Virus record (IMG/VR): IMGVR_UViG_3300047557_000342
Coordinates: 1-31,144 of that record
From: a virus
Strand: one strand, 5' to 3'
DNA: 31,144 bases
The position numbers and the translations under genes are program-made. Positions 2 through 24,981 of the stretch are shown piece after piece; position 1 is the stretch's first letter; every line of letters begins with the position of its first letter. The notes beneath the pieces were generated by a model that was given only the letters and a program-made list of their open reading frames with translations, was not told the origin of the DNA and searched no databases.

Positions 2-982
2 TTGACGGTTGCTTCGCAGAAGCACATCGGCGTCAACTTTACGACCGCCGAAATGACGATGCAGTTGGACGACTTTGCCGAGCGCGTGCTGAAGCCGCGT
101 ATCAGCCAGTTGGCCTCTAGCATTGACGCTGACGTTGCCAACTCGTTCAACAACATTTACCAGTCGGTTGGTACTCCGGGCACGACTCCGGGCACTTCGC
201 TCGTTCTGTTGCAGGCGCAGCAGAAGTTGAACGAAGCCGCCGCTGGTATGTCGCCCCGCTACGCCACCGTGAACCCGGCTGCTAACGCCGCGCTTGTGGA
301 AGGCATGAAGGGCTTGTTCAACCCGGTGTCGACGATCAGCAAGCAGTTTAAGAGCGGCTTGATGGGCGAAGGCATCCTCGGTTATGACGAACTTGCCATG
401 TCGCAGTCGATCAAGCAGTTTACGACCGGCAGCCGCACGGGCACCATCACGGTGAACGGCACGGTTTCGGCGCAGGGTCAATCGACCATTACGCTAAACG
501 GCACTACGGGCAACACGCTCAAGAAGGGCGATGTGTTCACGATTGCTAACGTGTACTCGGTCAACCCGCAGACCCGCGAATCGACTGGCTCGCTCCAGCA
601 GTTCGTGGTCACTGAGGACATCACTGCCGCTGCCAGCGCGTTTACCAACGTGAAGATTGCTCCGGCCATCTACACGTCGAGCGTTGCTCTGGCGACTGTG
701 GATTCGTTCCCGCAGAACGGTGCTGCTGTGACGTTCTTGGGTGGCGCTTCGACGCAGTACCCGCAGAACCTCGTGTACCACCGCGACGCGATTGCGTTTG
801 CCACGGCCGACCTCCTGCTCCCGCAGGGCGTTGACATGGCTTCGCGTCAGGTCCACAACGGTATCTCCATGCGCGTTGTCCGTCAGTACGACATCAACAA
901 CGACCGTATGCCGTGCCGTATCGACGTGCTGTATGGCTACTCGGTGATTCGTCCGCAGATGGCCGTGCGCCTCTGGGGCTAA
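2..982 (+). CDS. P22-type major coat protein (5' truncated by window edge)
   Basis: Major capsid protein that forms the icosahedral shell. 326 residues are visible and the reading frame is open to the left edge, so the TTG at base 2 is unlikely to be the true start; P22 gp5 is about 430 residues, so roughly 100 are missing. The family call rests on overall resemblance to P22 coat proteins, for example the early ADVANSFNNIYQSVGTPGTTPG segment and the C-terminal run RIDVLYGYSVIRPQMAVRLWG seen in shorter form at the very end (VRLWG). The middle (about residues 145-260) is beta-rich and would correspond to the inserted domain. Its position directly before small decoration-like proteins and the gp4/gp10 neck genes supports the call. 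The scaffold gene expected just upstream is not in the window. Confidence 0.9.
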   Translation: MTVASQKHIGVNFTTAEMTMQLDDFAERVLKPRISQLASSIDADVANSFNNIYQSVGTPGTTPGTSLVLLQAQQKLNEAAAGMSPRYATVNPAANAALVEGMKGLFNPVSTISKQFKSGLMGEGILGYDELAMSQSIKQFTTGSRTGTITVNGTVSAQGQSTITLNGTTGNTLKKGDVFTIANVYSVNPQTRESTGSLQQFVVTEDITAAASAFTNVKIAPAIYTSSVALATVDSFPQNGAAVTFLGGASTQYPQNLVYHRDAIAFATADLLLPQGVDMASRQVHNGISMRVVRQYDINNDRMPCRIDVLYGYSVIRPQMAVRLWG

Positions 983-2145: not shown

Positions 2146-2859
2146 ATGGCAACCACCGCTGCTGACCAGATCAACGGTGCGCTGCGTCTGATCGGGCAAT
2201 TGGCAGAAGGTGAAGTGCCTTCGGCAGCCACGTCTCAAGACGCATTAACTGCCCTAAACCAGATGATTGACTCGTGGAATACCGAGCGATTGTCTGTTTT
2301 CTCTACTCAAGACCAAGTTTATAACTGGCAGCCCAACGTGCGATTTATCACGATGGGACCGACCGGTACGTTTGTAGCCGAGCGTCCGATCCTGATGGAC
2401 GACGCTACTTATTTCCGTGACGCCTCGACCAACGTGTCGTATGGCATCCGACTGATCAATAACGAGCAATACAACAACATTGCCGTTAAGACCGTAACGT
2501 CCACGTATCCACAGTTGATGTGGGTCAACATGACCTACCCAGACGTGGAGATTTATATTTATCCGGTGCCCACTCGGGTGCTGGAGTTCCACTTTGTGTC
2601 GGTGCGCCCGCTGACTCAGCCTGCCGCGCTCAATACGGTACTAGCGTTCCCGCCGGGATATCTGCGTGCGTTCCGCTACAACTTGGCTTGCGAACTGGCT
2701 GCCGAGTTTGGCGTGGAGCCGTCGCCGCAGGTACAGCGCATTGCCATGTACAGCAAGCGCAACTTGAAGCGCATCAACAACCCGGATGATTTGATGGCAA
2801 TGCCAGCGGCCCTGATGGTCAATCGTCCGCGCTTTAACATCTTCACGGGCAACTTCTAA
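2146..2859 (+). CDS. P22 gp4-like head-to-tail adaptor (tail accessory factor)
   Basis: 237 residues, longer than P22 gp4 (166). In P22 gp4 binds the portal ring after packaging and forms the first adaptor of the neck; gp4 is also reported to have muralytic activity. The N-terminal helical region (TAADQINGALRLIGQLAEGE, then QDALTALNQMIDSWNTE, residues about 4-50) is the hallmark of this adaptor family. A beta region follows (about 60-150), then a helical C-terminus with RAFRYNLACELAAEFG (about 178-193). The stop codon overlaps the ATG of the gp10-like gene by one base, matching the gp4-gp10 order in P22. Confidence 0.88.
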   Translation: MATTAADQINGALRLIGQLAEGEVPSAATSQDALTALNQMIDSWNTERLSVFSTQDQVYNWQPNVRFITMGPTGTFVAERPILMDDATYFRDASTNVSYGIRLINNEQYNNIAVKTVTSTYPQLMWVNMTYPDVEIYIYPVPTRVLEFHFVSVRPLTQPAALNTVLAFPPGYLRAFRYNLACELAAEFGVEPSPQVQRIAMYSKRNLKRINNPDDLMAMPAALMVNRPRFNIFTGNF

Positions 2860-4583
2860 TGAAGACGCCGATCCTCGGGTCGTCGTACGTCATCCGGTCG
2901 GTCAACGCTGCCGACAACCGGATGGTCAATCTTTACCCAGAAGTGGTGCCGGAGGGTGGAAAAGAGCCTGCGTATCTTCAGCGTTGCCCTGGATTGGCCT
3001 TAAAGACCACAGTTGGAAGTGGGCCTATTCGTGGGTTGTGGGAACACAAGAACTTTCTGTACGTTGTATCTGATAGTGAGTTTTATCGGGTCGGGCCTGA
3101 TTACATCCCCACCAAAATTGGCGATGTAACCGGCACTGGCCCGGTATCCATGACCGATAACGGAACGCAGATATTTATTGCCTGCAATCCTGACGGGTTT
3201 ATTTACAACACGGATACGTTGCAGTTTGCCCAAATTACTGACCCGGACTTTCCGGGTGCTGTGACGGTGGGCTACCTTGACGGCTACTTTGTGTTTAACG
3301 AACCGAACTCGCAAAGAGTATGGGTCACGAGCCTATTGGATGGCTTGTCAATTGACCCCTTGGATTTTGCGAGCGCGGAGGGTTCACCAGACGGGCTAGT
3401 CTCTCTGATCATTGACCACCGAGAAGCGTGGCTGTTTGGCACAAACTCGGTGGAGGTCTGGTACAACTCGGGCGACCCCGACTTCCCCCTCACCCGCATC
3501 CAAGGCGCTTACAACGAGATTGGTTGTATTGCCCCCTACTCGGTCGCCAAGATGGATAACTCTGTCTTTTGGCTTGGCGCAGACCCTCGCGGTCGGGGTA
3601 TCGTCTATCGAGCAAACGGCTATACCGGCGTTCGCATCTCTACGCACGCCGTAGAGTTCGCCATCCAGAACTATGCCAATCTGTCTGATGCGGTAGGTTA
3701 CACCTACCAGCAGGACGGCCATACGTTCTATGTGCTGAACTTCACCGACGCTGATACGACGTGGGTATTTGACGCTGCCACGGGCGCTTGGCACGAGCGC
3801 GCCTCTTATCGCAACGGCAAGTTTAAGCGCCATCGTGGAAACGCTTATGCGCGATTTAACGGCGATCTTATCGTAGGCGATTATCAGAACGGCAAGTTAT
3901 ATAAGTTTGACTTGGACGTATATGAAGATGACGGCCAAATTCAAAAATGGCTGCGTCGTTGGCGTGCCCTGCCTCCGGGTGCGAATGACCTAAAGCGCAC
4001 CGCCCATCACTCGCTTCAGATTGACTGCGAGACTGGCGTTGGACTTAGTGGCCTAGACTTTTTTGATCCTACGGCAGAAATCACAACGGAAAGCCCAACA
4101 ACCACAGGTGATCTGTTGTTGGAAGATGGTGGCTTTTTGTTGTTAGAAGATGGCAGTTTGGTGCAACAAGAAGCATTGTCGCCTGCGCCGGGTTTAGGCA
4201 CGCCGATAAACACCGAAACTGGTTCGCCAGAACTTGCTGCTAACTTGGGCACTAACGTGCCACAAGACATCAATACGCAAAATGACTTGTATACGCTTGG
4301 CGTGCTTGAAGACCCAGGTTTGACGTTGGTCGTAGACACGCCGACTGTTGTGGGCGCTAACCCGCAGTTGATGCTGCGTTGGTCAGATGACGGCGGTCAC
4401 ACTTGGAACGGCGAGCGCACAACCTCAATGGGGCGCATCGGCCAATACGGCACTCGCGCTATCTTCCGTCGCCTTGGCATGACGCTAAAACTCCGCGACC
4501 GCGTATATGAAGTCAGCGGCACCGATCCGGTCAAGGTCGCCATCATGGGCGCCGAACTACAAATTAGCCCGACGGCATCGTAA
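2859..4583 (+). CDS. P22 gp10-like packaged-DNA stabilisation (tail hub) protein
   Basis: 574 residues against 472 for P22 gp10, a beta-propeller-like hub that plugs the neck beneath gp4. The N-terminus (PILGSSYVIRSVNAADNRMV, then NLYPEVVPEGGKEPAYL) is typical of the family: a short tail-binding segment followed by blades rich in Gly, Tyr and Trp (residues about 50-380). An extra segment at about 390-480 is not expected from P22; it is Thr/Pro-rich and contains two copies of an LLLEDGxx octapeptide (residues 419-434). The C-terminus (about 500-574) returns to the family pattern with LRWSDDGGHTWNGE. It starts inside the preceding TAA (TAATG coupling) and ends in the same way on the next gene. 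Confidence 0.88.
   Translation: MKTPILGSSYVIRSVNAADNRMVNLYPEVVPEGGKEPAYLQRCPGLALKTTVGSGPIRGLWEHKNFLYVVSDSEFYRVGPDYIPTKIGDVTGTGPVSMTDNGTQIFIACNPDGFIYNTDTLQFAQITDPDFPGAVTVGYLDGYFVFNEPNSQRVWVTSLLDGLSIDPLDFASAEGSPDGLVSLIIDHREAWLFGTNSVEVWYNSGDPDFPLTRIQGAYNEIGCIAPYSVAKMDNSVFWLGADPRGRGIVYRANGYTGVRISTHAVEFAIQNYANLSDAVGYTYQQDGHTFYVLNFTDADTTWVFDAATGAWHERASYRNGKFKRHRGNAYARFNGDLIVGDYQNGKLYKFDLDVYEDDGQIQKWLRRWRALPPGANDLKRTAHHSLQIDCETGVGLSGLDFFDPTAEITTESPTTTGDLLLEDGGFLLLEDGSLVQQEALSPAPGLGTPINTETGSPELAANLGTNVPQDINTQNDLYTLGVLEDPGLTLVVDTPTVVGANPQLMLRWSDDGGHTWNGERTTSMGRIGQYGTRAIFRRLGMTLKLRDRVYEVSGTDPVKVAIMGAELQISPTAS
4113..4160 (+). repeat. Tandem LLLEDG octapeptide repeat within the gp10-like gene
   Basis: Two adjacent 24-nt units encode LLLEDGGF and LLLEDGSL (residues 419-426 and 427-434). 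The same kind of unit occurs in the unrelated 56-residue protein at 30081-30251. See the corresponding finding. Confidence 0.8.
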
Positions 4584-5290
4584 TGGCACAGAACATCACG
4601 CAAATCCCTGCCCCGCGTGTTCCGTTCCTTGATGAGCGGACGGGTCTTATTTCGCGTGAATGGTTCCGCTTTCTTAACAATCAGTACCAACTGACTGGTG
4701 GCGGCACGACCGCTACCACGTTGGCTGACCTTGAGATTACGCCGTCGTTAGCCGCTAACGTTGAGGACGAAGTGGCGGTGCTGCGTACTCAAGTTGACGA
4801 TCTGCAAAAAGGGCCGCCTCGATTTGAGCCAGGGTTAGTTAATTACGGATCGTTCTTTTCCACGCAAACGCAAGCCGCGACCGTCATCAATACGGCAACG
4901 GCAATTACCTATAACAACGCTGACCCTGCGTATGGCGTGTATCGTGATCCGGGCGACAGCAGCAAGATTAAAGTAAGCCGCCCTGCCATCTACAACGTGC
5001 AATTTTCTATCCAAGTAGACAAAACTTCAGGTGGAACGGGTCAGTTTTACATTTGGCCTGCCATCAACGGCACGGCTGTGCCTAACTCAGCGTCGTTGGT
5101 TCAAATCCAAGGCAACAACGCGGAAATCTTTTCTGCGGCTAACTTCTTTTTGCCGTTGTCTAACGGTGATTACTTTCAGTTGTATTTTTCAGTTAGTGAC
5201 TTGAGCGTACAGTTGCAACACTTTGCTGCTGTTGCGCCCGTCCCAGCCATACCTTCTATCATTTTGACTGTTATGCAGGTGTACGTATGA
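4583..5290 (+). CDS. Tail protein, possible tail-needle analogue with distal beta knob
   Basis: 235 residues, close to the 233 of P22 gp26, and in the gp26 position right after gp10. Unlike gp26 it is not mostly coiled coil. It has an N-terminal segment (residues about 8-34, RVPFLDERTGLISREWFRFL) found in many phage tail proteins, a Gly/Thr linker, a short predicted coiled coil (about 55-75, VEDEVAVLRTQVDDLQK), then a beta-rich C-terminal domain of about 150 residues that reads like a jelly-roll or C1q/TNF-type knob. Needle function is an inference from position and architecture; a fibre or fibre adaptor is equally possible. Confidence 0.6.
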   Translation: MAQNITQIPAPRVPFLDERTGLISREWFRFLNNQYQLTGGGTTATTLADLEITPSLAANVEDEVAVLRTQVDDLQKGPPRFEPGLVNYGSFFSTQTQAATVINTATAITYNNADPAYGVYRDPGDSSKIKVSRPAIYNVQFSIQVDKTSGGTGQFYIWPAINGTAVPNSASLVQIQGNNAEIFSAANFFLPLSNGDYFQLYFSVSDLSVQLQHFAAVAPVPAIPSIILTVMQVYV

Positions 5291-6087
5291 CCGTTTACCT
5301 TTCAGCCTTTGCTGGCGCCGGAGCGCAGTTCTTCACCGACGACGGCCAAGTGCTGTCGGGCGGAAAGATCTACACCTATGCTGCTGGCACAACCTTGCCG
5401 CAAACAACTTACACATCGGTGTCGGGCGTTGATGCCAACCCAAATCCAATCATTTTGGACTCTGGTGGGCGCCTACCCGAAGACATGTGGTTGTCGCAGG
5501 GCGTGTTATATCGGTTTGTATTGGCTAACTCTGACGGAATTCAAATTGGCGAATACGACGACATTGGCGGCATCAACGACGTATCCACGCAGTCAATTGC
5601 TTGGTCAACGATTACGGGCACCCCGACCACGGTGGCTGGATACGGGATTACAAATGCGCTGACGACGACGGCAGCAGCGGCCACTTACGCCCCTCTTGCC
5701 TCGCCCACGTTTACCGGCACGCCGCTGATCCCTGACAACGACACGCCGAACGTAAACTTTGCCGTGGGCTATCGAGATGCGCCGCAGGTTAGCAAGACGG
5801 CTAACTACCAATTGGTGTTGGCGGATCGCGGCAAGTCCATTTTGATGAATGGCACGTCACTGACCCTAACCATCCCGGCTAACTCGGCTGTGGCGTTCCC
5901 GGTTGGCACGGTCATCATTATTGTTAACGTCAATACGACGGCGCTGTCGATTGCTATTACGACCGATACGTTGACGCTGGCTAACAGCACGACGACGGGC
6001 ACTCGTACGTTGGCGCGTAACGGCCTGGCGACTTGCGTCAAGATTGGCTCGACCTCGTGGCTGATTAGCGGAGCAGGATTGTCCTAA
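5287..6087 (+). CDS. Tail fibre protein
   Basis: 266 residues. Residues about 1-95 match the virion-binding head domain common to many phage fibres: AGAQFFTDDGQVLSGGKIYT, then NPNPIILDSGGRLPEDMWL, then VLYRFVLANSDG. A short stalk (about 100-150) includes the fibre repeat TYAPLASPTFTGT. Residues about 158-266 form a C-terminal beta domain that is clearly related to the C-terminus of the second fibre at 30255-30971. The ATG overlaps the previous stop in an ATGA arrangement, so it is probably translated by coupling. With no enzymatic domain it is likely a receptor-binding or connector fibre. Confidence 0.85.
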   Translation: MTVYLSAFAGAGAQFFTDDGQVLSGGKIYTYAAGTTLPQTTYTSVSGVDANPNPIILDSGGRLPEDMWLSQGVLYRFVLANSDGIQIGEYDDIGGINDVSTQSIAWSTITGTPTTVAGYGITNALTTTAAAATYAPLASPTFTGTPLIPDNDTPNVNFAVGYRDAPQVSKTANYQLVLADRGKSILMNGTSLTLTIPANSAVAFPVGTVIIIVNVNTTALSIAITTDTLTLANSTTTGTRTLARNGLATCVKIGSTSWLISGAGLS

Positions 6088-6740
6088 TGGGCGGCGCTAC
6101 CCTAGCAGCGGCGATTGCAGGCACGACCGGAGGTTCCGGTGGTGTCTTTGACTTTGACTCGGGGTCAGGGTCGGTATCTATTCCAGGCGGAGCCACAGGC
6201 GTCACCATCGAGGTGTGGGGCGCAGGCGGTGGTGGCGGCTACGGTACGGTAACAAACATCTTTGGCGAGTTTGCCTATGAGCCGCAAGAGAACCCCGGTG
6301 GCGGTGGTGGCGGTGGCGCCTACGTTAAGACGGTGCTGGTGTTAACCGGCCCGGATGCTGGTAAAACCATCCTGTACACTGTCGGCGCTGCTGGCGCAGG
6401 CGGTTCGTTTGGTGACGCAGTGGGCGGCGCAGGTGGTCAGTCAGTAGCCTATGCCGGAACGTATGCCCTACCCGAGATGATCGCTACGGGCGGCTTTGGC
6501 GGCTACGGTGGCATCGGTATCTACGGCAGCCAACAGGGTGCCGGTGGAACGGCCTCTGGCGGCAATACAAGCAACGACAACGGCAATGGCGGCGCTCCCT
6601 TTACCCAGACAGGCGCGGCGCCGAGATCGGGCGTAGGAAGCCTTACAGCGGGTGGTGGCGGAGATGGTGGCGACCCTGTGGAAGGCGGCGCTCCCGGCTT
6701 GCCTGGGGCTAATGGCCGCGTCCGAATAGTATTTACATAG
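6087..6740 (+). CDS. Glycine-rich fibre-tip (adhesin-like) protein
   Basis: 217 residues with about a third glycine. A short beta segment (residues about 30-48, SVSIPGGATGVTIEVWGAG) leads into polyglycine runs, with repeated GGxGG-type motifs to near the C-terminus, which ends NGRVRIVFT. This is the architecture of the glycine-rich domain found at phage fibre tips, in which long Gly loops form a polyglycine-II-like core and variable loops touch the receptor. It overlaps the fibre stop by one base. A second gene of the same kind sits at the right edge of the window after the second fibre. Confidence 0.78.
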   Translation: MGGATLAAAIAGTTGGSGGVFDFDSGSGSVSIPGGATGVTIEVWGAGGGGGYGTVTNIFGEFAYEPQENPGGGGGGGAYVKTVLVLTGPDAGKTILYTVGAAGAGGSFGDAVGGAGGQSVAYAGTYALPEMIATGGFGGYGGIGIYGSQQGAGGTASGGNTSNDNGNGGAPFTQTGAAPRSGVGSLTAGGGGDGGDPVEGGAPGLPGANGRVRIVFT

Positions 6741-6747
6741 GTGACAC

Positions 6748-7083
6748 ATGGCAGTTAACGTCAAAGTCCTGATCCCCGCAAAGATTGCGGAGAATACCCA
6801 GACAACTCAATACACAGCGACGAACGTGTCGGCCATTATCGACAAGTTCACGGCGACTAATTACAGCGCCTCTGCGGCTACTCTGTCGGTCAACCTCGTG
6901 ACCCAGTTTGACGCTGCGGGCAACCAAAACTTGATCATTAAGGCCAAAACCCTGCTGCCGAGCGAGACGTACACGTTCCCTGAATTGGTCGGCCATGTGC
7001 TGCAACCGGGCGGGTTTATCTCAACGCTGGCTGGCACGGCCTCGGCTATCAACATCCGGTCGTCGGGGCGAGAAGTCTCGTGA
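6748..7083 (+). CDS. Small structural protein of the tail-fibre cluster, unknown function
   Basis: 111 residues starting at an ATG with an AGGTGA Shine-Dalgarno at 6739-6744. The sequence is an alternating beta pattern with no signal peptide, membrane helix or catalytic motif; it contains TFPELVGHVLQPGGFISTLA near the end (about residues 75-95). Such proteins often sit between fibres and injection proteins. The last codons overlap the GTG of the cupin-SET gene by four bases, so the two are probably co-translated. Confidence 0.6.
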   Translation: MAVNVKVLIPAKIAENTQTTQYTATNVSAIIDKFTATNYSASAATLSVNLVTQFDAAGNQNLIIKAKTLLPSETYTFPELVGHVLQPGGFISTLAGTASAINIRSSGREVS

Positions 7084-7952
7084 CGGAACTGGCGACAATA
7101 GGCGCTCAAGCGTTGCAGTTGTTCGGCAGCCCAGAGGAAGCCGAAACCGCTATGCTGCCTATGCCACAAGTAGATTGCCCAGTGACGCACTACTTCGGGC
7201 CGGGAGTTGCTATTAGAGAGGTGTTCTTACCTGCTGGAACGTTGGCTGTGGGACACAAGCAAAAGCGTGAGCATCTGAACATTTTGCTGCGCGGCAAGGT
7301 AGTTATGTTGCACGACGACGGTACTTTGAGAACCGTATCGGCTCCGCTCATTTACACCAGCGCACCAGGCCGCAAAATCGGCTACGTTCTGGAAGATACG
7401 GTTTGGCAGAACATTTATTCTACTGACCTGAAAGATGCCGACGAAATTGAAGCCACGTTTATTGAAAAAAGCGAAACGTGGCAGCAGCATCAAATTGCAG
7501 ATTTAGCGCAACGGCAGTTTGGCCGCGCTGCTGATCGGCAGGACTTTCAATGCTTGCTATTAGAGTGTGGCATTTCTGCCGATGTTGTTGAGGCGCAGTC
7601 CGCCAACTTGGATGATCAAATCCATTTGGAGTGCGGAATTGTCCGCGTCCATGAATCGGAGATTCAAGGAAAGGGGTTATTTGTTACCGCCCCCGTTCCT
7701 GCCGGTCAGGTGATTATGCCCGCTCGAATTGATGGCAAACGCACCCAAGCCGGTCGTTATGTAAATCATTCGTTAACACCTAACTGCCGCATGGTGATGC
7801 GGGAAAACGGCGACATTGATTTGGTGGCGCTGGTAGACCTTGACGGATGTAAGGGCGGTAGCGTAGGGCAAGAAGTTACTATAGATTATCGGCAAACTTT
7901 GGCGCTATCTGGCGTCTATCTGCCGACGCAGGAGTTTGTATGTCAGCCATAG
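7080..7952 (+). CDS. Cupin and SET-domain fusion protein, putative protein lysine methyltransferase
   Basis: 290 residues. Residues about 35-135 look like a single cupin-type beta barrel: a GHKQKREHLNILLRGKV segment (58-74) resembles the cupin metal-binding motif with H59 and H65. Residues about 185-285 carry the three SET signatures: a GKGLF motif (197-201) in the usual N-terminal position, RYVNHSLTPNC (226-236, the NHS..PN knot motif) and GQEVTIDY (263-270, the GEEL.IDY-type motif with the active-site Tyr). SET proteins transfer methyl groups from S-adenosylmethionine to lysine. The start is GTG at 7080 overlapping the upstream TGA. It lies between fibre and ejection genes, so it is expressed late; the substrate could be a virion or host protein. 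Substrate and activity are inferred, not shown. Confidence 0.75.
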   Translation: MTELATIGAQALQLFGSPEEAETAMLPMPQVDCPVTHYFGPGVAIREVFLPAGTLAVGHKQKREHLNILLRGKVVMLHDDGTLRTVSAPLIYTSAPGRKIGYVLEDTVWQNIYSTDLKDADEIEATFIEKSETWQQHQIADLAQRQFGRAADRQDFQCLLLECGISADVVEAQSANLDDQIHLECGIVRVHESEIQGKGLFVTAPVPAGQVIMPARIDGKRTQAGRYVNHSLTPNCRMVMRENGDIDLVALVDLDGCKGGSVGQEVTIDYRQTLALSGVYLPTQEFVCQP

Positions 7953-8626
7953 CAGCAGCAATAGCCACCAGCGCCGTCGTAGGCGCATACAGCGCTAAAA
8001 AGGGCGCGTCGGCACAGAAACAAGCCGCCGACCAGTCCGCTGAAGTTCAGCGCGAGATATTCCAGAAACAAACGGAACTGGCAGAGCCATTTCGTCAGGC
8101 TGGCATTACCTCGCAGAACGAACTGATGCGGCTGCTTGGAATTGGCGGCGATCAGACTGCGGCGGATTACGGCATGTTGACTCGTGGTTTTGGCGAGCGC
8201 GACATGCAGATGGACCCTGGTTACGGCTTCCGTTTGCGCGAAGGCGAAAAAGCCCTTGAGCGTATGCAGTCTGCTCGTGGCAACTTGCTATCAGGCGGCG
8301 CGATTAAGGCTGGTCAGCGCTTCGGCCAAGACTTGGCTTCGCAAGAGTACATGAACGCCTTTAATCGAGCGCAGGCGCAGTTAGGCACGCGCCTTGGTGC
8401 GTTAGGCAGTTTGTATGGCGCTGGTCAGGCGGCCACCCAACAGGTTTCTTCGCAAGCCGGTCAGTACGGTGAAAACGTAGGCAACTTGTTGATGGCTGGC
8501 GGCGCTGCTCGTGCTTCGGGATATGCGGGTATGGCTAACGCCCTTAACCAAGCGCTTGGTCAGTATGTTAACTACCGTCAGGGGCAGGATTACCTGAATC
8601 GCCGATACCCAACAGGGGAGGTTTGA
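7940..8626 (+). CDS. DNA ejection (internal virion) protein 1, gp7-like
   Basis: 228 residues. The N-terminus is a small hydrophobic Ala-rich helix (residues 1-20, MSAIAAAIATSAVVGAYSAK), followed by a Gln/Glu-rich helical segment and a motif DPGYGFRLREGEKALERMQS (about 92-111) that is widespread in short-tailed phage DNA-transfer proteins. The rest is Ala, Gly and Gln-rich and helical. In P22 three ejection proteins (gp7, gp20, gp16) leave the capsid ahead of the DNA to build a conduit through the cell envelope; here three consecutive genes follow the same plan. AGGAG at about 7930-7934 precedes the ATG. The gene overlaps the end of the SET gene by 13 nt. Confidence 0.78.
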   Translation: MSAIAAAIATSAVVGAYSAKKGASAQKQAADQSAEVQREIFQKQTELAEPFRQAGITSQNELMRLLGIGGDQTAADYGMLTRGFGERDMQMDPGYGFRLREGEKALERMQSARGNLLSGGAIKAGQRFGQDLASQEYMNAFNRAQAQLGTRLGALGSLYGAGQAATQQVSSQAGQYGENVGNLLMAGGAARASGYAGMANALNQALGQYVNYRQGQDYLNRRYPTGEV

Positions 8627-13295: not shown

Positions 13296-14363
13296 ATGCA
13301 AGCAAAAGCCACCGACGATCAAATCCTAAAGGCACTACAGGACGCCAACGGCATACGATCCGTCGTCGCTAACAAACTGGGGCTGAACGAACGAAGCCTA
13401 CAGATGCGGATTAAGAAGATGAAGGCAAAGGGCTACATCGTTCCTGAGTCCACATATCAGCAAGGCGCCGTCAAGCAAGACGTAGAGAAGCCCGGATTTT
13501 CCTTTACCCCGCTGCCCGACGACGACATTCCTATCGAAGAACTGATTGAGCAGCGCAAGCGCAAGTTCCTACACAAGCGCGAACACGAAGAAGCCTCCAA
13601 ACTGATCCCGATTCGGGTCAAGTTGGGGGGCGCTATCGGCCTGCTGCACTTTGGCGACCCGCACGTAGACGACGACGGCTGCGACATCGGCGCAATTGAG
13701 CGTCACACGGCGCTGGTGAACAAGACTGAGGGGCTGTTTGCCTGCAACGTGGGCGACACTACGAACAACTGGTGTGGCCGCCTAGCCCGACTCTACGCCG
13801 ACCAGAGTACGTCAGCGGCGCAAGCCTGGAAGATTGCCGAGTGGTTTGTTGGCCGCTGCGACTGGCTGTACATGATTGCCGGAAACCACGACTTGTGGTC
13901 AGGTTCGGGCGATCCGCTGAAGTGGATAGCCAAGCAGCAGAACTCGCTTTATAAGTCCTCAGAAGCCCGTATAGCGCTTCGGTTCCCCAACGGCATGGAA
14001 GTGCGGGTCAACGCTCGCCACGACCACAGCGGCTCGTCTATTTGGAACCCGGCGCATGGCCCGATGAAGGCAGCCATCATGGGAACCCGCGACCACATCT
14101 ACGTGGCCGGTCACAAGCACGAGAGCGCTTATAGCGTGCTGAAGGATGCGATTACGGGTATTACCATGCACGCGGTTAAGGTCGCCTCATACAAGGTGTA
14201 TGACCGTTACGCCAAGGATCGAGGGTTCAGGGACAACGCCCTGTCACCCTGCGTCCTGACGACGATTAACCCAGACCTACCGCCTGACCATCCAGACTTG
14301 GTGAAAGTGTGGTGGGAACCGGAAGAGGGTGCGGACTACCTGAGTTTCCTGCGACGGCGCTAA
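13296..14363 (+). CDS. Metallophosphoesterase with N-terminal helix-turn-helix
   Basis: 355 residues. Residues about 8-48 form a HTH (ILKALQDANGIRSVVANKLG then LNERSLQMRIKKMKAKGY), resembling Fis-type or replication-regulator HTHs. Residues about 105-330 are a calcineurin-like phosphoesterase with the metal motifs GDPHVDD (D121, H123), GD at 153-154, GNHD (196-199), an HDH and a GHKHE. Such enzymes cleave phosphodiesters or phosphomonoesters with two metal ions. The HTH suggests the enzyme acts on or near DNA. It is in a late-reading position but faces the convergent leftward operon; its 3' end overlaps the antisense gene at 14266-14529 by 98 nt. Confidence 0.82.
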   Translation: MQAKATDDQILKALQDANGIRSVVANKLGLNERSLQMRIKKMKAKGYIVPESTYQQGAVKQDVEKPGFSFTPLPDDDIPIEELIEQRKRKFLHKREHEEASKLIPIRVKLGGAIGLLHFGDPHVDDDGCDIGAIERHTALVNKTEGLFACNVGDTTNNWCGRLARLYADQSTSAAQAWKIAEWFVGRCDWLYMIAGNHDLWSGSGDPLKWIAKQQNSLYKSSEARIALRFPNGMEVRVNARHDHSGSSIWNPAHGPMKAAIMGTRDHIYVAGHKHESAYSVLKDAITGITMHAVKVASYKVYDRYAKDRGFRDNALSPCVLTTINPDLPPDHPDLVKVWWEPEEGADYLSFLRRR

Positions 14364-15413: not shown

Positions 15414-15629
15414 ATGGAACAAGATGACTTCCGCATCTTGCAAGAGCAAGAGCGCGACAGACTCATGGAACTGCACTGCCGTGCAGAACACGCAGCCTTC
15501 AACGTCATCGAAGGCTTGAACGAACTCAACCGCATCGAAGCCGAAGGCGCTTTCAAACTGCACCAGGCATTTGCCGAGTGCCTCGCTGCTATTGACGCTG
15601 CATCCGCCAAACTGAGGGAACCACAATGA
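15414..15629 (+). CDS. First gene of the early operon, small helical acidic protein
   Basis: 71 residues, predicted almost fully helical, rich in Glu and Ala (MEQDDFRILQEQERDRLMEL and onward). ATG 15414 has GGAG at 15404-15407, 6 nt upstream. The 4-base overlap with the ERF gene (ATGA) suggests that the two are made together. It may be an accessory to the ERF protein or an anti-host factor; no family is recognised. Confidence 0.68.
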   Translation: MEQDDFRILQEQERDRLMELHCRAEHAAFNVIEGLNELNRIEAEGAFKLHQAFAECLAAIDAASAKLREPQ

Positions 15630-16201
15630 AGGTCTACGAGAAGATTGCCGCTGTTACCGCCGAACTGTCCAAGATCGGCATCAGCAAGGACAGCAAGAAC
15701 ACATCCCAAGGCTACGCTTTCCGTGGCATCGACGCTGTGTACGGTGCGCTCTCGCCCATGCTGTCAAAGCACGGCCTGTGCATCCTGCCTCGCGTGACTG
15801 ACCGACAGGTTATTGAGCGCCAGAACCGTCAAGGCACGGCGCTGTTCTACGTCACGCTGACCGTTGAGTTTGACTTTGTAGCCGCCGAAGACGGCAGCAA
15901 GCACACGGTCATTACGGTAGGCGAGGCGATGGATTCTGGCGATAAGGCCAGTAACAAGGCGATGTCTGCGGCTTACAAGTACGCCGCCTTCCAAGCCTTC
16001 TGCATCCCGACAGAGGGCGATAACGACGCAGACGCCCACACACACGAAGTATCTGCCACCGACCCTGCTGTTGAAGCGTCCGTAGAAGCCGCTACCACTA
16101 TCGAGGAGTTAAACAACGTATGGAAAAGCCTAAGCGCCGAACAAAGAAAGACCCACTTGCCGATCTTCTCAACCCGCAAGACCCAACTCTCCGGCAGGTA
16201 A
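15626..16201 (+). CDS. erf: ERF-family single-strand annealing recombinase
   Basis: 191 residues. The ERF core is visible in residues about 5-135: KIAAVTAELSKIGISKDSKN, GYAFRGIDAVYGALSPMLSKHGL (quoted in part), then FVAAEDGS, GEAMDSGDKASNKAMSAAYK and FCIPTEGDND. These proteins form rings that anneal complementary single strands during phage recombination and genome circularisation, as Erf does in P22. The C-terminus (about 155-191) is a short helical tail typical of the family. It works with the YqaJ-type exonuclease at 17552-18160, which supplies the 3' overhangs. Its final 82 nt overlap the next gene in another frame. Confidence 0.88.
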   Translation: MKVYEKIAAVTAELSKIGISKDSKNTSQGYAFRGIDAVYGALSPMLSKHGLCILPRVTDRQVIERQNRQGTALFYVTLTVEFDFVAAEDGSKHTVITVGEAMDSGDKASNKAMSAAYKYAAFQAFCIPTEGDNDADAHTHEVSATDPAVEASVEAATTIEELNNVWKSLSAEQRKTHLPIFSTRKTQLSGR

Positions 16202-16404
16202 TTGACGACGTATCTGCATACATCGTCCGTTACTCGCTGACGACCACGGAGGCCAGTTTGGAACAGATCATTGAAGAACGGTTAGCCGGTGATTGGAAGC
16301 ACGGGTTCTTCGTCAAGAACAAGACGCAAGACCTTCGCATCCTGCGCGACCACCTTGAGGCCGTGCGGATCGTGCGAGGTTGGTACGAGGTGCCGCCACT
16401 ATGA
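16120..16404 (+). CDS. Small basic/acidic mixed protein overlapping ERF, unknown
   Basis: 94 residues, beginning MEKPKRRTKKDPLADLLNP. GAGGAG at 16104-16109 stands 10 nt before the ATG. After a basic N-terminus it has DDVSAYIVRYSLTTTEASLE, then KHGFFVKNKTQDLRILRDHL (quoted in part), giving a helical domain that resembles small DNA-binding or nuclease-associated phage proteins. The first 82 nt are shared with the ERF C-terminus in a different frame. An alternative, later start cannot be excluded. Function unknown. Confidence 0.62.
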   Translation: MEKPKRRTKKDPLADLLNPQDPTLRQVIDDVSAYIVRYSLTTTEASLEQIIEERLAGDWKHGFFVKNKTQDLRILRDHLEAVRIVRGWYEVPPL

Positions 16405-16625
16405 AGGCATATACCAAACCGTCTCGCTATAACCTGCGGCTGTCGTTGGCGCAATACCAACTGCTGCTGTACCGCAAAAAAAAGGCTAGAGAAAACAACG
16501 AGCGTATTCGTTACAAAGACCTGATTGAAGCCTGGGGTGTACGCCAGAGCGTCATCGGGACTGCGTTGCAGCGCGGCATCAAACAGTACGATTACATCCT
16601 GTGGAAGCAGGGGTTACTGCAATGA
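16401..16625 (+). CDS. Small HTH-like basic protein
   Basis: 74 residues (MKAYTKPSRYNLRLSLAQYQ). It is basic in the middle (YRKKKARENNERIRYKD) and has a helical segment LIEAWGVRQSVIGTALQRGI (about 45-64) that could be a HTH, with spacing like a small DNA-binding protein. It overlaps the preceding stop by four bases (ATGA). A homopolymer of eight A bases in the Lys-rich part (around 16476-16483) could be a slippage site. Probably a regulator or an accessory of recombination. No named family. Confidence 0.6.
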   Translation: MKAYTKPSRYNLRLSLAQYQLLLYRKKKARENNERIRYKDLIEAWGVRQSVIGTALQRGIKQYDYILWKQGLLQ

Positions 16626-16846
16626 CTCCTTACTACGCGCTGATGTCGGATTGGGAAATCATCGGTCACACGATGGCGATTCCTGATTCGTCTGAACTAT
16701 CGCAAGCCTTGGCCGAGAAGTTGAAGCGAGTGTTAGAGCAGCGTGATGAGTACCGAGAGCAGAATTCGGCGTTACGAGAAAAGGTAGAGCGCTTAGAGCG
16801 CGAGTGCAAAGAACTTAACCGTCTCATGGAGACAGGAGAGGAATAA
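16622..16846 (+). CDS. Small protein with C-terminal coiled coil
   Basis: 74 residues. After an N-terminal aromatic patch (MTPYYALMSDWEIIGH) comes a long, heptad-like helix (about residues 27-70, EKLKRVLEQRDEYREQNSAL then REKVERLERECKELNRLMET), a typical dimerising coiled coil. ATGA overlap with the preceding gene and TAATG overlap with the next put it firmly in the operon. Function is not known. Confidence 0.6.
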   Translation: MTPYYALMSDWEIIGHTMAIPDSSELSQALAEKLKRVLEQRDEYREQNSALREKVERLERECKELNRLMETGEE

Positions 16847-17550
16847 TGAGTGCGCTTTTACAACGCATGGTTAAGACGTGGGTTGCTACGTCAAAAAACC
16901 CTTGTGAATGGCATTGGTTTGACTTGAGCGGATCAATCCCAACTGATCATGCTATCCATGTCGAGCCAGAGTTATGGCTTACAACTTATCGACCTCCGTT
17001 TGATAAAACCGTTTTGGTATATCAAGGGCAACGCAACGAAGTGTCGCACGAAGTTTTAATGACTTTGGAAGGAGATGACCCAGAGGTCGGTATTAAGTTT
17101 TCTGTAGTGATTCGATTTGGGGAGCATCTTCCGAAGTTACTAACAACGGCGATGTACTCAATTCGTAACGGGCAGTTGTTTTTGACGCGCAAAGCAGGCG
17201 AATCACAGCAAGAAATTGATAACCGAAACTGGGGGTTGACGTTGATTGCGATGCTGTATCAACGGCTTGCAAATATGCCGACGAAGGCATCAATTCCAAC
17301 CATTGATAACTTTATCAACAAGAAAAGACTAGAGCGAAACAAGCCGCCAATTTATACGTGGCGAACACTGATTGTCAGTGGAAAAAAGATTAGAAGCGAG
17401 GATCACGGCGGCACGCACGCATCGCCGCGATTCCATGAGCGTCGAGGGCATCATCGGCGTTTACCGAACGGGAAAACTGTTTGGGTAAAGTCGTGCAAGG
17501 TTGGCGACCCTGCTCGTGGCGCCGTATTTAAAGATTATAAGGTGGTGTGA
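16846..17550 (+). CDS. Phage protein of unknown function with basic C-terminal motif
   Basis: 234 residues. The N-terminal 140 residues look like a globular alpha/beta domain (WHWFDLSGSIPTDHAIHVEP near 22-41, quoted in part). The C-terminus is basic with Gly and His: THASPRFHERRGHHRRLPNG then KTVWVKSCKVGD and a final DYKVV. I recall the same tail pattern in uncharacterised proteins from other phages, but no function. AGGAGAGGAA sits just before the ATG and the start overlaps the previous stop. It has more A/T-rich codons than its neighbours, so it might be a recent arrival (see finding). Confidence 0.62.
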   Translation: MSALLQRMVKTWVATSKNPCEWHWFDLSGSIPTDHAIHVEPELWLTTYRPPFDKTVLVYQGQRNEVSHEVLMTLEGDDPEVGIKFSVVIRFGEHLPKLLTTAMYSIRNGQLFLTRKAGESQQEIDNRNWGLTLIAMLYQRLANMPTKASIPTIDNFINKKRLERNKPPIYTWRTLIVSGKKIRSEDHGGTHASPRFHERRGHHRRLPNGKTVWVKSCKVGDPARGAVFKDYKVV

Positions 17551-17551
17551 C

Positions 17552-18160
17552 ATGGAACAGCGAACAACAGAATGGCACCAAGCCAGACTTGGCAAGGTGA
17601 CGGCATCGAAGGTGGCTGACGTAGTGGCTCGCACCCGCACGGGTTATGCCGCAAGCCGCGCTAATTACATGGCGCAGTTGGTCTGCGAGCGTCTGACCGG
17701 CAAGCCGACCGAGGGTTTTTCCAACGCAGCGATGGAGTGGGGCGTTGAGCAGGAAGCCGCAGCCCGTGATGCGTACAGCGCCAAGGTGGGCGAACTCGTC
17801 ACCGAGGTGGGCTTTATCGACCATCCGAGTATCCCAATGTCGGGCGCGTCACCCGATGGCGTTGTGGGCGCAGGGATCGTCGAGATCAAGTGTCCGTCTA
17901 CGGCCACCCATATCGAGTACCTGATGGAGCGTGAGCCGCCGCAAAAATACTTTTATCAGATGCAATGGCAGATGGCCTGTACGGGTGCGGATTGGTGCGA
18001 TTGGGTTTCATACGATCCGAGGATGCCCGAGAACCTCCAGTTGCTCGTGGTGCGTATCCCAAGGGATACAGACTGCATTACCTTGTTAGAGAAAGAGGTC
18101 AGCGAATTCCTCGCTGAACTAGATGTTAAAGTGGCAAAACTGAAGGAGATGACCCTGTGA
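17552..18160 (+). CDS. YqaJ-like / lambda-exonuclease-type recombination nuclease
   Basis: 202 residues. Diagnostic motifs: an N-terminal RTTEWHQARLGKVTASKVAD (residues 4-23), a PD-(D/E)XK core with MEWGVEQE (61-68; E66 and E68), SGASPDG (97-103; D102) and VEIKCP (110-115; E111, K113), and a YQMQWQM helix (135-141). Lambda Exo relatives chew 5' ends to leave 3' strands, which the ERF protein anneals. ATG 17552 lies directly after the preceding TGA. The end overlaps the next gene by 4 bases (GTGA). It is the processive nuclease of a two-component annealing system. Confidence 0.88.
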   Translation: MEQRTTEWHQARLGKVTASKVADVVARTRTGYAASRANYMAQLVCERLTGKPTEGFSNAAMEWGVEQEAAARDAYSAKVGELVTEVGFIDHPSIPMSGASPDGVVGAGIVEIKCPSTATHIEYLMEREPPQKYFYQMQWQMACTGADWCDWVSYDPRMPENLQLLVVRIPRDTDCITLLEKEVSEFLAELDVKVAKLKEMTL

Positions 18161-24010: not shown

Positions 24011-24545
24011 GTCGATCCCTTTTAAGCCTCGGGAACTCAAAGCCTCTCAGGAGGTTTTAGATAAGATTTACGAGGCTGCCAAACTTGGGCTGAAGGGTGA
24101 TGCCCTAGCCTTTGCTGCGGACATGCTGCCAACCGAGTATCGTAGGCTCTGCCAAATGGATGGGGCGGCTGCTATCGCGGAGGCAAAGGGTCGTGCTGAC
24201 AGTGAATTTGAGGCGGCAAACCAGTTGCGCGTGGCGGCTCTTGGTGGCGATAGCAAGGCAGCACTTGCTCTCTTGCAGCACGTGCATGGGTGGGTCGCTA
24301 AGACCCAGGTCCAAGTCGATGTTAAATCGCAGATCAGTATCATCGCGGCACTGCAAGAGGCGGAATCCCGCGTTATTCAGGGCAGAGTGGTGCAGGATAT
24401 TCCGGCTGCACTAGATGGTACAATTGACGAAGCCCCGAACCGTTCCAGCGGATCGAGGCTTCTGACCAACCAACCTTCGAGAGAGGCTGATTATGGCTAC
24501 GAAGATTCTAACGCAAGAACGCCTGAGAGAGTTGCTGCACTATGA
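23997..24545 (+). CDS. terS: Terminase small subunit-like protein
   Basis: 182 residues with a GTG start; GAGG (23987-23990) is 6 nt upstream. Residues about 15-55 (KASQEVLDKIYEAAKLGLKG then DALAFAADMLPTEYRRLCQM) form a HTH-like DNA-binding segment, followed by helical oligomerisation regions (about 60-130). The tail is disordered and overlaps the HNH gene by 53 nt in another frame. TerS binds the pac site and loads DNA on TerL. The call depends on helical pattern and on position two genes before TerL, as sequence similarity of TerS proteins is low. Confidence 0.7.
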   Translation: METFRSIPFKPRELKASQEVLDKIYEAAKLGLKGDALAFAADMLPTEYRRLCQMDGAAAIAEAKGRADSEFEAANQLRVAALGGDSKAALALLQHVHGWVAKTQVQVDVKSQISIIAALQEAESRVIQGRVVQDIPAALDGTIDEAPNRSSGSRLLTNQPSREADYGYEDSNARTPERVAAL

Positions 24546-24981
24546 TCCGGCAACCGGCGTCTTTACATGGCTCAAGCCATGCAGCAGGTTTAGCCAAGTG
24601 AAACCCGGCGACCCCGCAGGCTGCGTACACGCACGCGGTTATATCCACATAAAGGTAAATGGCGTTGGATATAAGGCACACCGACTGGCGTGGCTATATA
24701 CGCATGGTCGCTGGCCGGAACCGGCTATAGACCATATCAACCGAGTTAAAACCGACAACCGCCTTGCCAACCTGCGCGAAACCGATCAACTCGGCAACAT
24801 GCAGAACAAGGGGCAATACAGAAACAACACCAGCGGTTACGTTGGCGTTTCTAAACATTCATCCGGTAAGTGGGCAGCCCAGATTCAGGTCAACCGCAAA
24901 AACCGTCATTTAGGGCTTTTTGCCACACCTGAGTTAGCATCTGGTGCGTACCAAGCCGCTAAAAAGCAAATGGCCGCCTAA
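24493..24981 (+). CDS. HNH endonuclease with AP2-like DNA-binding domain
   Basis: 162 residues. The HNH core is YKAHRLAWLYTHGRWPEPAI then DHINRVKTDNRLANLRE (about residues 55-96): the first His in KAHRL, the DHIN with Asp-His-Asn, and the RLANLR Asn form the HNH metal site. Residues about 112-155 (TSGYVGVSKHSSGKWAAQIQ and onward) match an AP2-type beta-sheet domain that binds DNA. HNH/AP2 proteins are typical free-standing homing endonucleases. It sits between TerS and TerL, where HNH proteins can also assist packaging. Whether it is selfish or functional for packaging is open. Confidence 0.86.
   Translation: MATKILTQERLRELLHYDPATGVFTWLKPCSRFSQVKPGDPAGCVHARGYIHIKVNGVGYKAHRLAWLYTHGRWPEPAIDHINRVKTDNRLANLRETDQLGNMQNKGQYRNNTSGYVGVSKHSSGKWAAQIQVNRKNRHLGLFATPELASGAYQAAKKQMAA

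Follow-up and report, generated by a model that had tools for sequence, protein, structure and literature searches.

A putative tail-module phage cupin fused to a compact, predicted SET protein-lysine methyltransferase

Analysis of a virus record of 31,144 bases that lacks end repeats (hereafter the window, meaning the whole stretch of DNA) revealed a gene whose product joins a cupin to a SET domain. We assign a probability of roughly 0.6 to the reading that this protein is a cupin of the tail/ejection module equipped with a SET protein-lysine methyltransferase (predicted) that is compact and probably active, and that would act on a virion or host protein nearby. The parts are of known kinds, and databases already list their combination, as 'hypothetical' or with names derived from motifs.

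The cupin-SET gene and its reading frame

The initial annotation had described a 290-residue frame at 7080-7952, and this frame is intact: it forms one open ORF of 290 codons on the plus strand, encoding 290 amino acids from a GTG start, and the three SET signatures lie exactly at the residues given for them (Table 1). The GTG start and the stop codon of the preceding gene interlock in a 4-base overlap (GTGA), through which the two genes are translationally coupled. Profile phrog_34170 covers the full protein, while the tail PHROGs cover the cupin part alone. Where it could be estimated, dN/dS over the whole protein was 0.02-0.17, and the gene is under purifying selection. Because of these low values and the residues conserved over 86 relatives, a chance origin is excluded; homology, selection and fold together ruled out a frame artefact or chance reading of the ORF.

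Table 1 Features of the cupin-SET locus in the window
Feature	Position	Strand	Evidence
Major head protein	2-982		
Head-tail adaptor	2146-2859		
Head closure Hc3 / gp10-like packaged-DNA stabilisation protein	2859..4583	+	phrog_578, E = 7e-130
111-aa conserved neighbour, upstream	6748..7083	+	just 5' of the fusion in many relatives, 44-96% identity
Cupin-SET fusion gene	7080..7952	+	phrog_34170 over residues 19-278, E = 3e-86
Cupin (jelly-roll) domain, predicted, residues ~19-130	7134..7469	+	phrog_12032 and phrog_24280 over 22-144; AF2 strands 35-113; Foldseek cupins
Helical linker, predicted, residues ~131-185	7470..7634	+	AF2 helices 120-127, 132-147, 150-163, 167-174
Compact SET domain, residues ~186-278	7635..7913	+	Pfam SET; SET-only AF2 model
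GxG motif GKGLF, residues 197-201	7668..7682	+	G197, G199, F201 invariant, n = 86
Shortened SET-I region, residues 213-223	7716..7748	+	MLL1 alignment; R216, R221 invariant
NHS motif RYVNHSLTPNC, residues 226-236	7755..7787	+	N229, H230 invariant, n = 86
GQEVTIDY, residues 263-270, with catalytic-type tyrosine Y270	7866..7889	+	E265, Y270 invariant, n = 86
DNA-ejection protein, P22 gp7-like, directly downstream	7940..8626	+	phrog_598, E = 6e-31; same slot in relatives

A compact SET domain with invariant signature residues

The SET domain claimed for the C-terminus was borne out by profile, predicted fold and invariant signatures. In the profile search that had been suggested as a check, the Pfam SET model PF00856 matched residues 223-270 above its curated cut-off (24.7 bits against 22.4, E = 3.3e-5), and it matched 57 of the 57 rows of the homologue alignment, with a best E of 4e-9. 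Across 86 relatives ranging from ~98% to ~29% identity, G197, G199, F201, R216, R221, G225, N229, H230, E265 and Y270 were invariant; these correspond to the positions that bind the cofactor and serve catalysis in SET enzymes. Other motif positions varied in the same set, R226 being changed once, D269 replaced by N in three relatives and S231 by A in 16.

We class the C-terminus as a SET-domain protein, the SET-I region being its one qualification. In the alignment with MLL1, about 10 residues separate the matched halves, compared with about 44 in MLL1, so that the region is some 34 residues shorter. The SET-I insert normally contributes to the substrate groove and to substrate binding, and is variable within the SET family; its shortening is a qualification of SET membership and no exclusion from it. 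R216 and R221, both invariant in the shortened stretch, may take over part of the work of SET-I. The flank on the C-terminal side consists of a short helix (270-276), with a single C-terminal Cys in many members but not all, and no CxC-x4-C post-SET motif was found in the fusion family.

Structure prediction, also named beforehand as a check, yielded both the SET fold and the cupin barrel. The full-length AF2 model, computed from an alignment with 57 homologues, reached a pLDDT of 91.2 and a pTM of 0.86. In it, N-terminal helices precede a beta barrel (35-113), which a helical linker (120-174) joins to a beta-rich C-terminal domain. When this one model was compared with the PDB by Foldseek, cupins and MLL SET domains were both matched, and the best PDB matches of the barrel were cupins such as TM1459 (E = 2e-5). 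A SET-only model (pLDDT 85.9) matched nothing but SET methyltransferases among the 50 PDB matches listed, with query TM scores of 0.56-0.65; these included SAM-bound SET enzymes as well as vSET, at a TM score of 0.60 both ways. From the PDB alignments, the SET domain is predicted to contain the pseudo-knot and a SAM pocket. Matches in a search of viral models included phage proteins consisting of the cupin alone, as well as further SET proteins of viruses. In the alignment with separate SET genes, the end of the linker (DYxxxLxExG...DQ) accompanied the SET domain where SET is a gene of its own.

Relation of the N-terminal half to phage tail cupins

Residues 22-144 matched phrog_12032 (E = 5e-32) and phrog_24280 (E = 5e-23), and the labels of these cupin PHROGs, 'short tail fiber' and 'tail fiber adhesin', are annotations and not measurements. 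By this homology and its gene slot, the cupin half belongs to a podovirus tail-cupin family. The earlier proposal of a cupin held for the fold, as the AF2 model contains a barrel with cupin matches in the PDB, and did not hold at the level of Pfam, where no cupin model matched the protein. A search of solved structures with the cupin profile gave a weak cupin match (E = 0.014), and no tail cupin of a phage was among the results. The spacing of cupin motif 1 is preserved over residues 53-72 (G-x5-H59-x-Q61-x3-H65-x6-G72), and H59, Q61 and H65 are conserved within the fused clade. The metal site is incomplete: the second His and the Glu of motif 1 are replaced, a motif-2 His is not evident, and the set of residues differs in SET-less relatives.

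Gene neighbourhood

As the initial annotation had stated, the gene is located in a late virion cluster, with the fibre region upstream and a DNA-ejection gene directly downstream. The order runs from the major head protein through the head-tail adaptor, the Hc3/gp10-like gene, four fibre-region or unknown genes and the 111-aa gene to cupin-SET, followed by the gp7-like gene and two large proteins. This order is common to relatives, including Rhodoferax phage P26218, Pseudoalteromonas phage PH1 and MW202744, and it recurs with a SET-less cupin in Thalassomonas phage BA3, Vibrio phages 234P7a and VPMS1 and Shewanella phage X14. In P22-like phages the cupin is placed between the gp10/Hc3 gene and the gp7-like gene; in a Sphaerotilus phage of the T7 supergroup it is flanked by tail tubular B on one side and internal virion proteins on the other. 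The slot and the homology together suggest the cupin as the part of the fusion that associates with the tail or ejection apparatus.

Several other genes of the window, all on the plus strand, were also noted. Directly 3' of the gp10-like gene, 4583-5290 encodes a 235-aa protein with IPAPRVPFLDERTGLISREWFRF at its N-terminus and a beta-rich C-terminus, which by eye could represent a tail needle bearing a TNF-like knob and had no family match. The fibre region includes a glycine-rich-domain protein (6087-6740; Pfam PF21722 above cut-off). Farther downstream are a Fis-like helix-turn-helix (just below cut-off) fused to a calcineurin-type phosphoesterase/DNA repair exonuclease (13296-14363), a recombination cassette of an Erf-like annealing protein and a RecE-like exonuclease (15626-18160), and an HNH endonuclease gene (24493-24981; phrog_99, E = 5e-70) immediately 5' of the large terminase gene.

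Distribution and modularity of the fusion

At least 344 relatives of the cupin-SET protein were found in viral contigs, which rules out the fusion as a lone oddity of this contig; prophages and phage contigs carrying relatives came from Paraburkholderia, Comamonadaceae and others. A search with the SET domain only could have returned other partners, yet nearly all of the loci carried a cupin, and cupin and SET shared one reading frame in 84 of the 87 loci fetched. Two loci have the reversed fusion, with SET before cupin (L106, 3662-4801; L115, 2950-3819), and in a third, from Paraburkholderia ferrariae (L103), cupin and SET are separate genes with a 4-base overlap. The equivalents of the GxG, N229, H230 and Y270 are kept in separate SET genes and in the reversed fusions. 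That the fusion occurs in both orders and also as a split, adjacent pair gives good grounds for concluding that the two halves work together.

The search with the cupin gave the complementary picture, SET being absent from 66 of 80 loci. On the cupin tree, which is built on few columns, no fewer than 11 changes are required to explain where SET is present, and the well-supported branches alone force 4; the count was made with the cupin-only loci truncated at contig ends (L214, L245 and L246) set aside. In one pair of loci (L219 and L216), the cupins are 92% identical and the downstream ejection proteins 80% identical, and one member carries a linker and SET totalling about 130 residues where the other has a short helical-looking tail. 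SET is thus an optional, swappable cassette, yet one nearly always linked to the tail cupin. Since it is optional on a widespread cupin family, methylation is unlikely to be needed to build the tail or the particle, and since phages without SET can have nearly the same cupin as SET-bearing ones and an ejection protein 80% identical to theirs, no core virion protein needs it. The ORF downstream of the fusion at another locus (L100) was considered as a separate cupin and rejected: it scored E < 1e-3 in one scan, failed the stricter cut-off and has a sequence unlike a full cupin.

Proposed function and alternative explanations

We propose that the cupin half would place the protein at the site of tail/ejection assembly, as its stand-alone relatives presumably do, and that the SET half would bind SAM via the GxG and NHS motifs and transfer the methyl group by means of Y270, modifying whatever the cupin brings near. 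The reaction would take place late in infection, inside the producing cell and during assembly, and the substrate would be one of the neighbouring proteins of the tail or ejection apparatus, or else the fusion itself. Methylation would be optional for virion building and would serve to tune entry, stability or evasion more probably than assembly. Its cofactor, SAM, is cytoplasmic, so that action outside the cell is unlikely, which points to work at assembly time or to injection. The parts of the proposal differ in strength: catalytic activity of the SET half is quite likely, an association of the fusion with the tail or its assembly is likely, and late timing in the producing cell with a virion substrate is a tentative suggestion. 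Observations that stand against the best reading are that most of SET-I is missing, that there are SET-less phages with near-identical cupins, and that the ejection protein is not enriched in lysine. Lysines were in fact slightly fewer in the gp7-like ejection protein of SET-bearing phages, a comparison confounded by kinship, and in the absence of enrichment we rejected lysine content as a signal that this protein is the substrate. A literature search for virion proteomics of any family member found none, and no structure placing a member in a virion tail was found either.

Modification of a virion protein or of the fusion itself at assembly time is the scenario that we favour, at somewhat less than even odds. 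Next to it comes an injected effector, in which the protein would be packaged, accompany the ejection proteins into the new host and there methylate a host protein, for example blunting defence or reprogramming the cell. The position of the gene directly 5' of the ejection genes in all arrangements agrees with this, as optional presence and cassette swapping agree with a host-directed function; but packaging and injection are only supposed, the stand-alone cupin relatives are labelled as tail proteins, and cupin-SET had no match in a search of anti-defence models, all of which makes the scenario unlikely. We regard it as equally unlikely that the cupin is a non-virion helper that loads the ejection proteins while SET modifies this client. 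Such an assembly factor would account for the slot before the ejection proteins in both P22-like and T7-like phages, which resembles the slots of T7 gp13 and P22 gp14, and it sits poorly with the PHROG labels of tail fibre or adhesin and with natural SET-less versions that have similar ejection proteins.

The remaining two explanations concern what the domains themselves do. A loss of most of SET-I and a Pfam match confined to the C-terminal half of the SET domain are what one would see if the fold were a structural relic, a rigid beta-clip or binding module that had lost methylation. A scaffold would not need the GxG, N229, H230 and Y270, which are invariant in the 86 relatives down to ~29% identity and kept in the separate SET genes and reversed fusions, and we therefore consider a relic improbable. 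Still less probable, to the point of being very doubtful, is a metal-dependent cupin enzyme that would turn the fusion into a two-enzyme protein: the motif 1 spacing and the three residues conserved in the fused clade speak for it, against which stand the replaced motif 1 residues, the lack of an evident motif-2 His, the changed set in SET-less relatives and the missing Pfam cupin match. Viewed across the family, these proteins may form a modular and widespread class of tail-linked protein-lysine methyltransferases of phages, in which the cupin would bring an active SET (predicted) to the tail/ejection apparatus, methylation of a protein of the virion or the host would give an optional infection advantage, and the cassette would be gained, lost and swapped at a fixed domain junction; we put this forward as a tentative generalisation.

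Relation to known systems

The same full-length cupin-linker-SET build, in the same slot, is found in PHROG 34170 (P26218_30 of Rhodoferax phage P26218, PH1 gp49 and MW202744). Its members in the phage collection are ~29-50% identical to the window protein, mostly annotated as hypothetical and, as far as we know, never characterised; the MW202744 member is annotated 'pbcV-1 histone H3-lys 27 methyltransferase structure'. The cupins of PHROG 12032/24280 (Thalassomonas phage BA3, Vibrio phages VPMS1 and VvAW1; PHA00672) are homologous to the N-terminal half and occupy the slot before the DNA-ejection gene, but they lack SET and have a short C-terminal tail instead. Among SET proteins, vSET of PBCV-1 (A612L; PDB: 1n3j, 3kma) is a small viral enzyme with the same core fold; it comes from an algal virus, methylates histone H3K27 as a stand-alone protein and has no cupin. 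MLL1, ASH1L and SETD8 gave the best sequence and fold matches to the SET core, SAM-bound structures included; these are eukaryotic chromatin enzymes, and in the window protein their SET-I region, and apparently their post-SET region too, is reduced or missing.

We know of no characterised SET lysine methyltransferase in phages that attack bacteria, and to our knowledge the methylation of lysines in virions, or by proteins of the virion, has hardly been studied. The earlier statement that no phage enzyme of this build is known to have been characterised fits our open-access literature searches, in which no paper describing a cupin-SET fusion was found; a SET protein, ORF62, is merely listed for Stenotrophomonas phage Ps15 (PMC9025141). 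In hundreds of environmental phages at least, the family links a predicted SET enzyme with the tail/ejection module, and Rhodoferax phage P26218 and Pseudoalteromonas phage PH1 are cultured carriers. Natural pairs with and without the cassette are ready comparisons that allow a direct test of what protein methylation does in phage entry, and a compact SET domain missing most of SET-I is a useful case for substrate choice by SET enzymes.

Compact phage SET domains with a similar RTPxG..NHS stretch also occur in PHROG 28741 (cyanophages P-RSM6 and P-SSM7 and Pelagibacter phage Kolga), as stand-alone genes of ~100 aa without a cupin. In P-RSM6 (L182, 5058-5357) this gene adjoins a gp25-like baseplate wedge gene. 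In P-SSM7 it is located among the metabolic genes nrdB/talC, and proximity to tail genes therefore fails as a rule for phage SETs.
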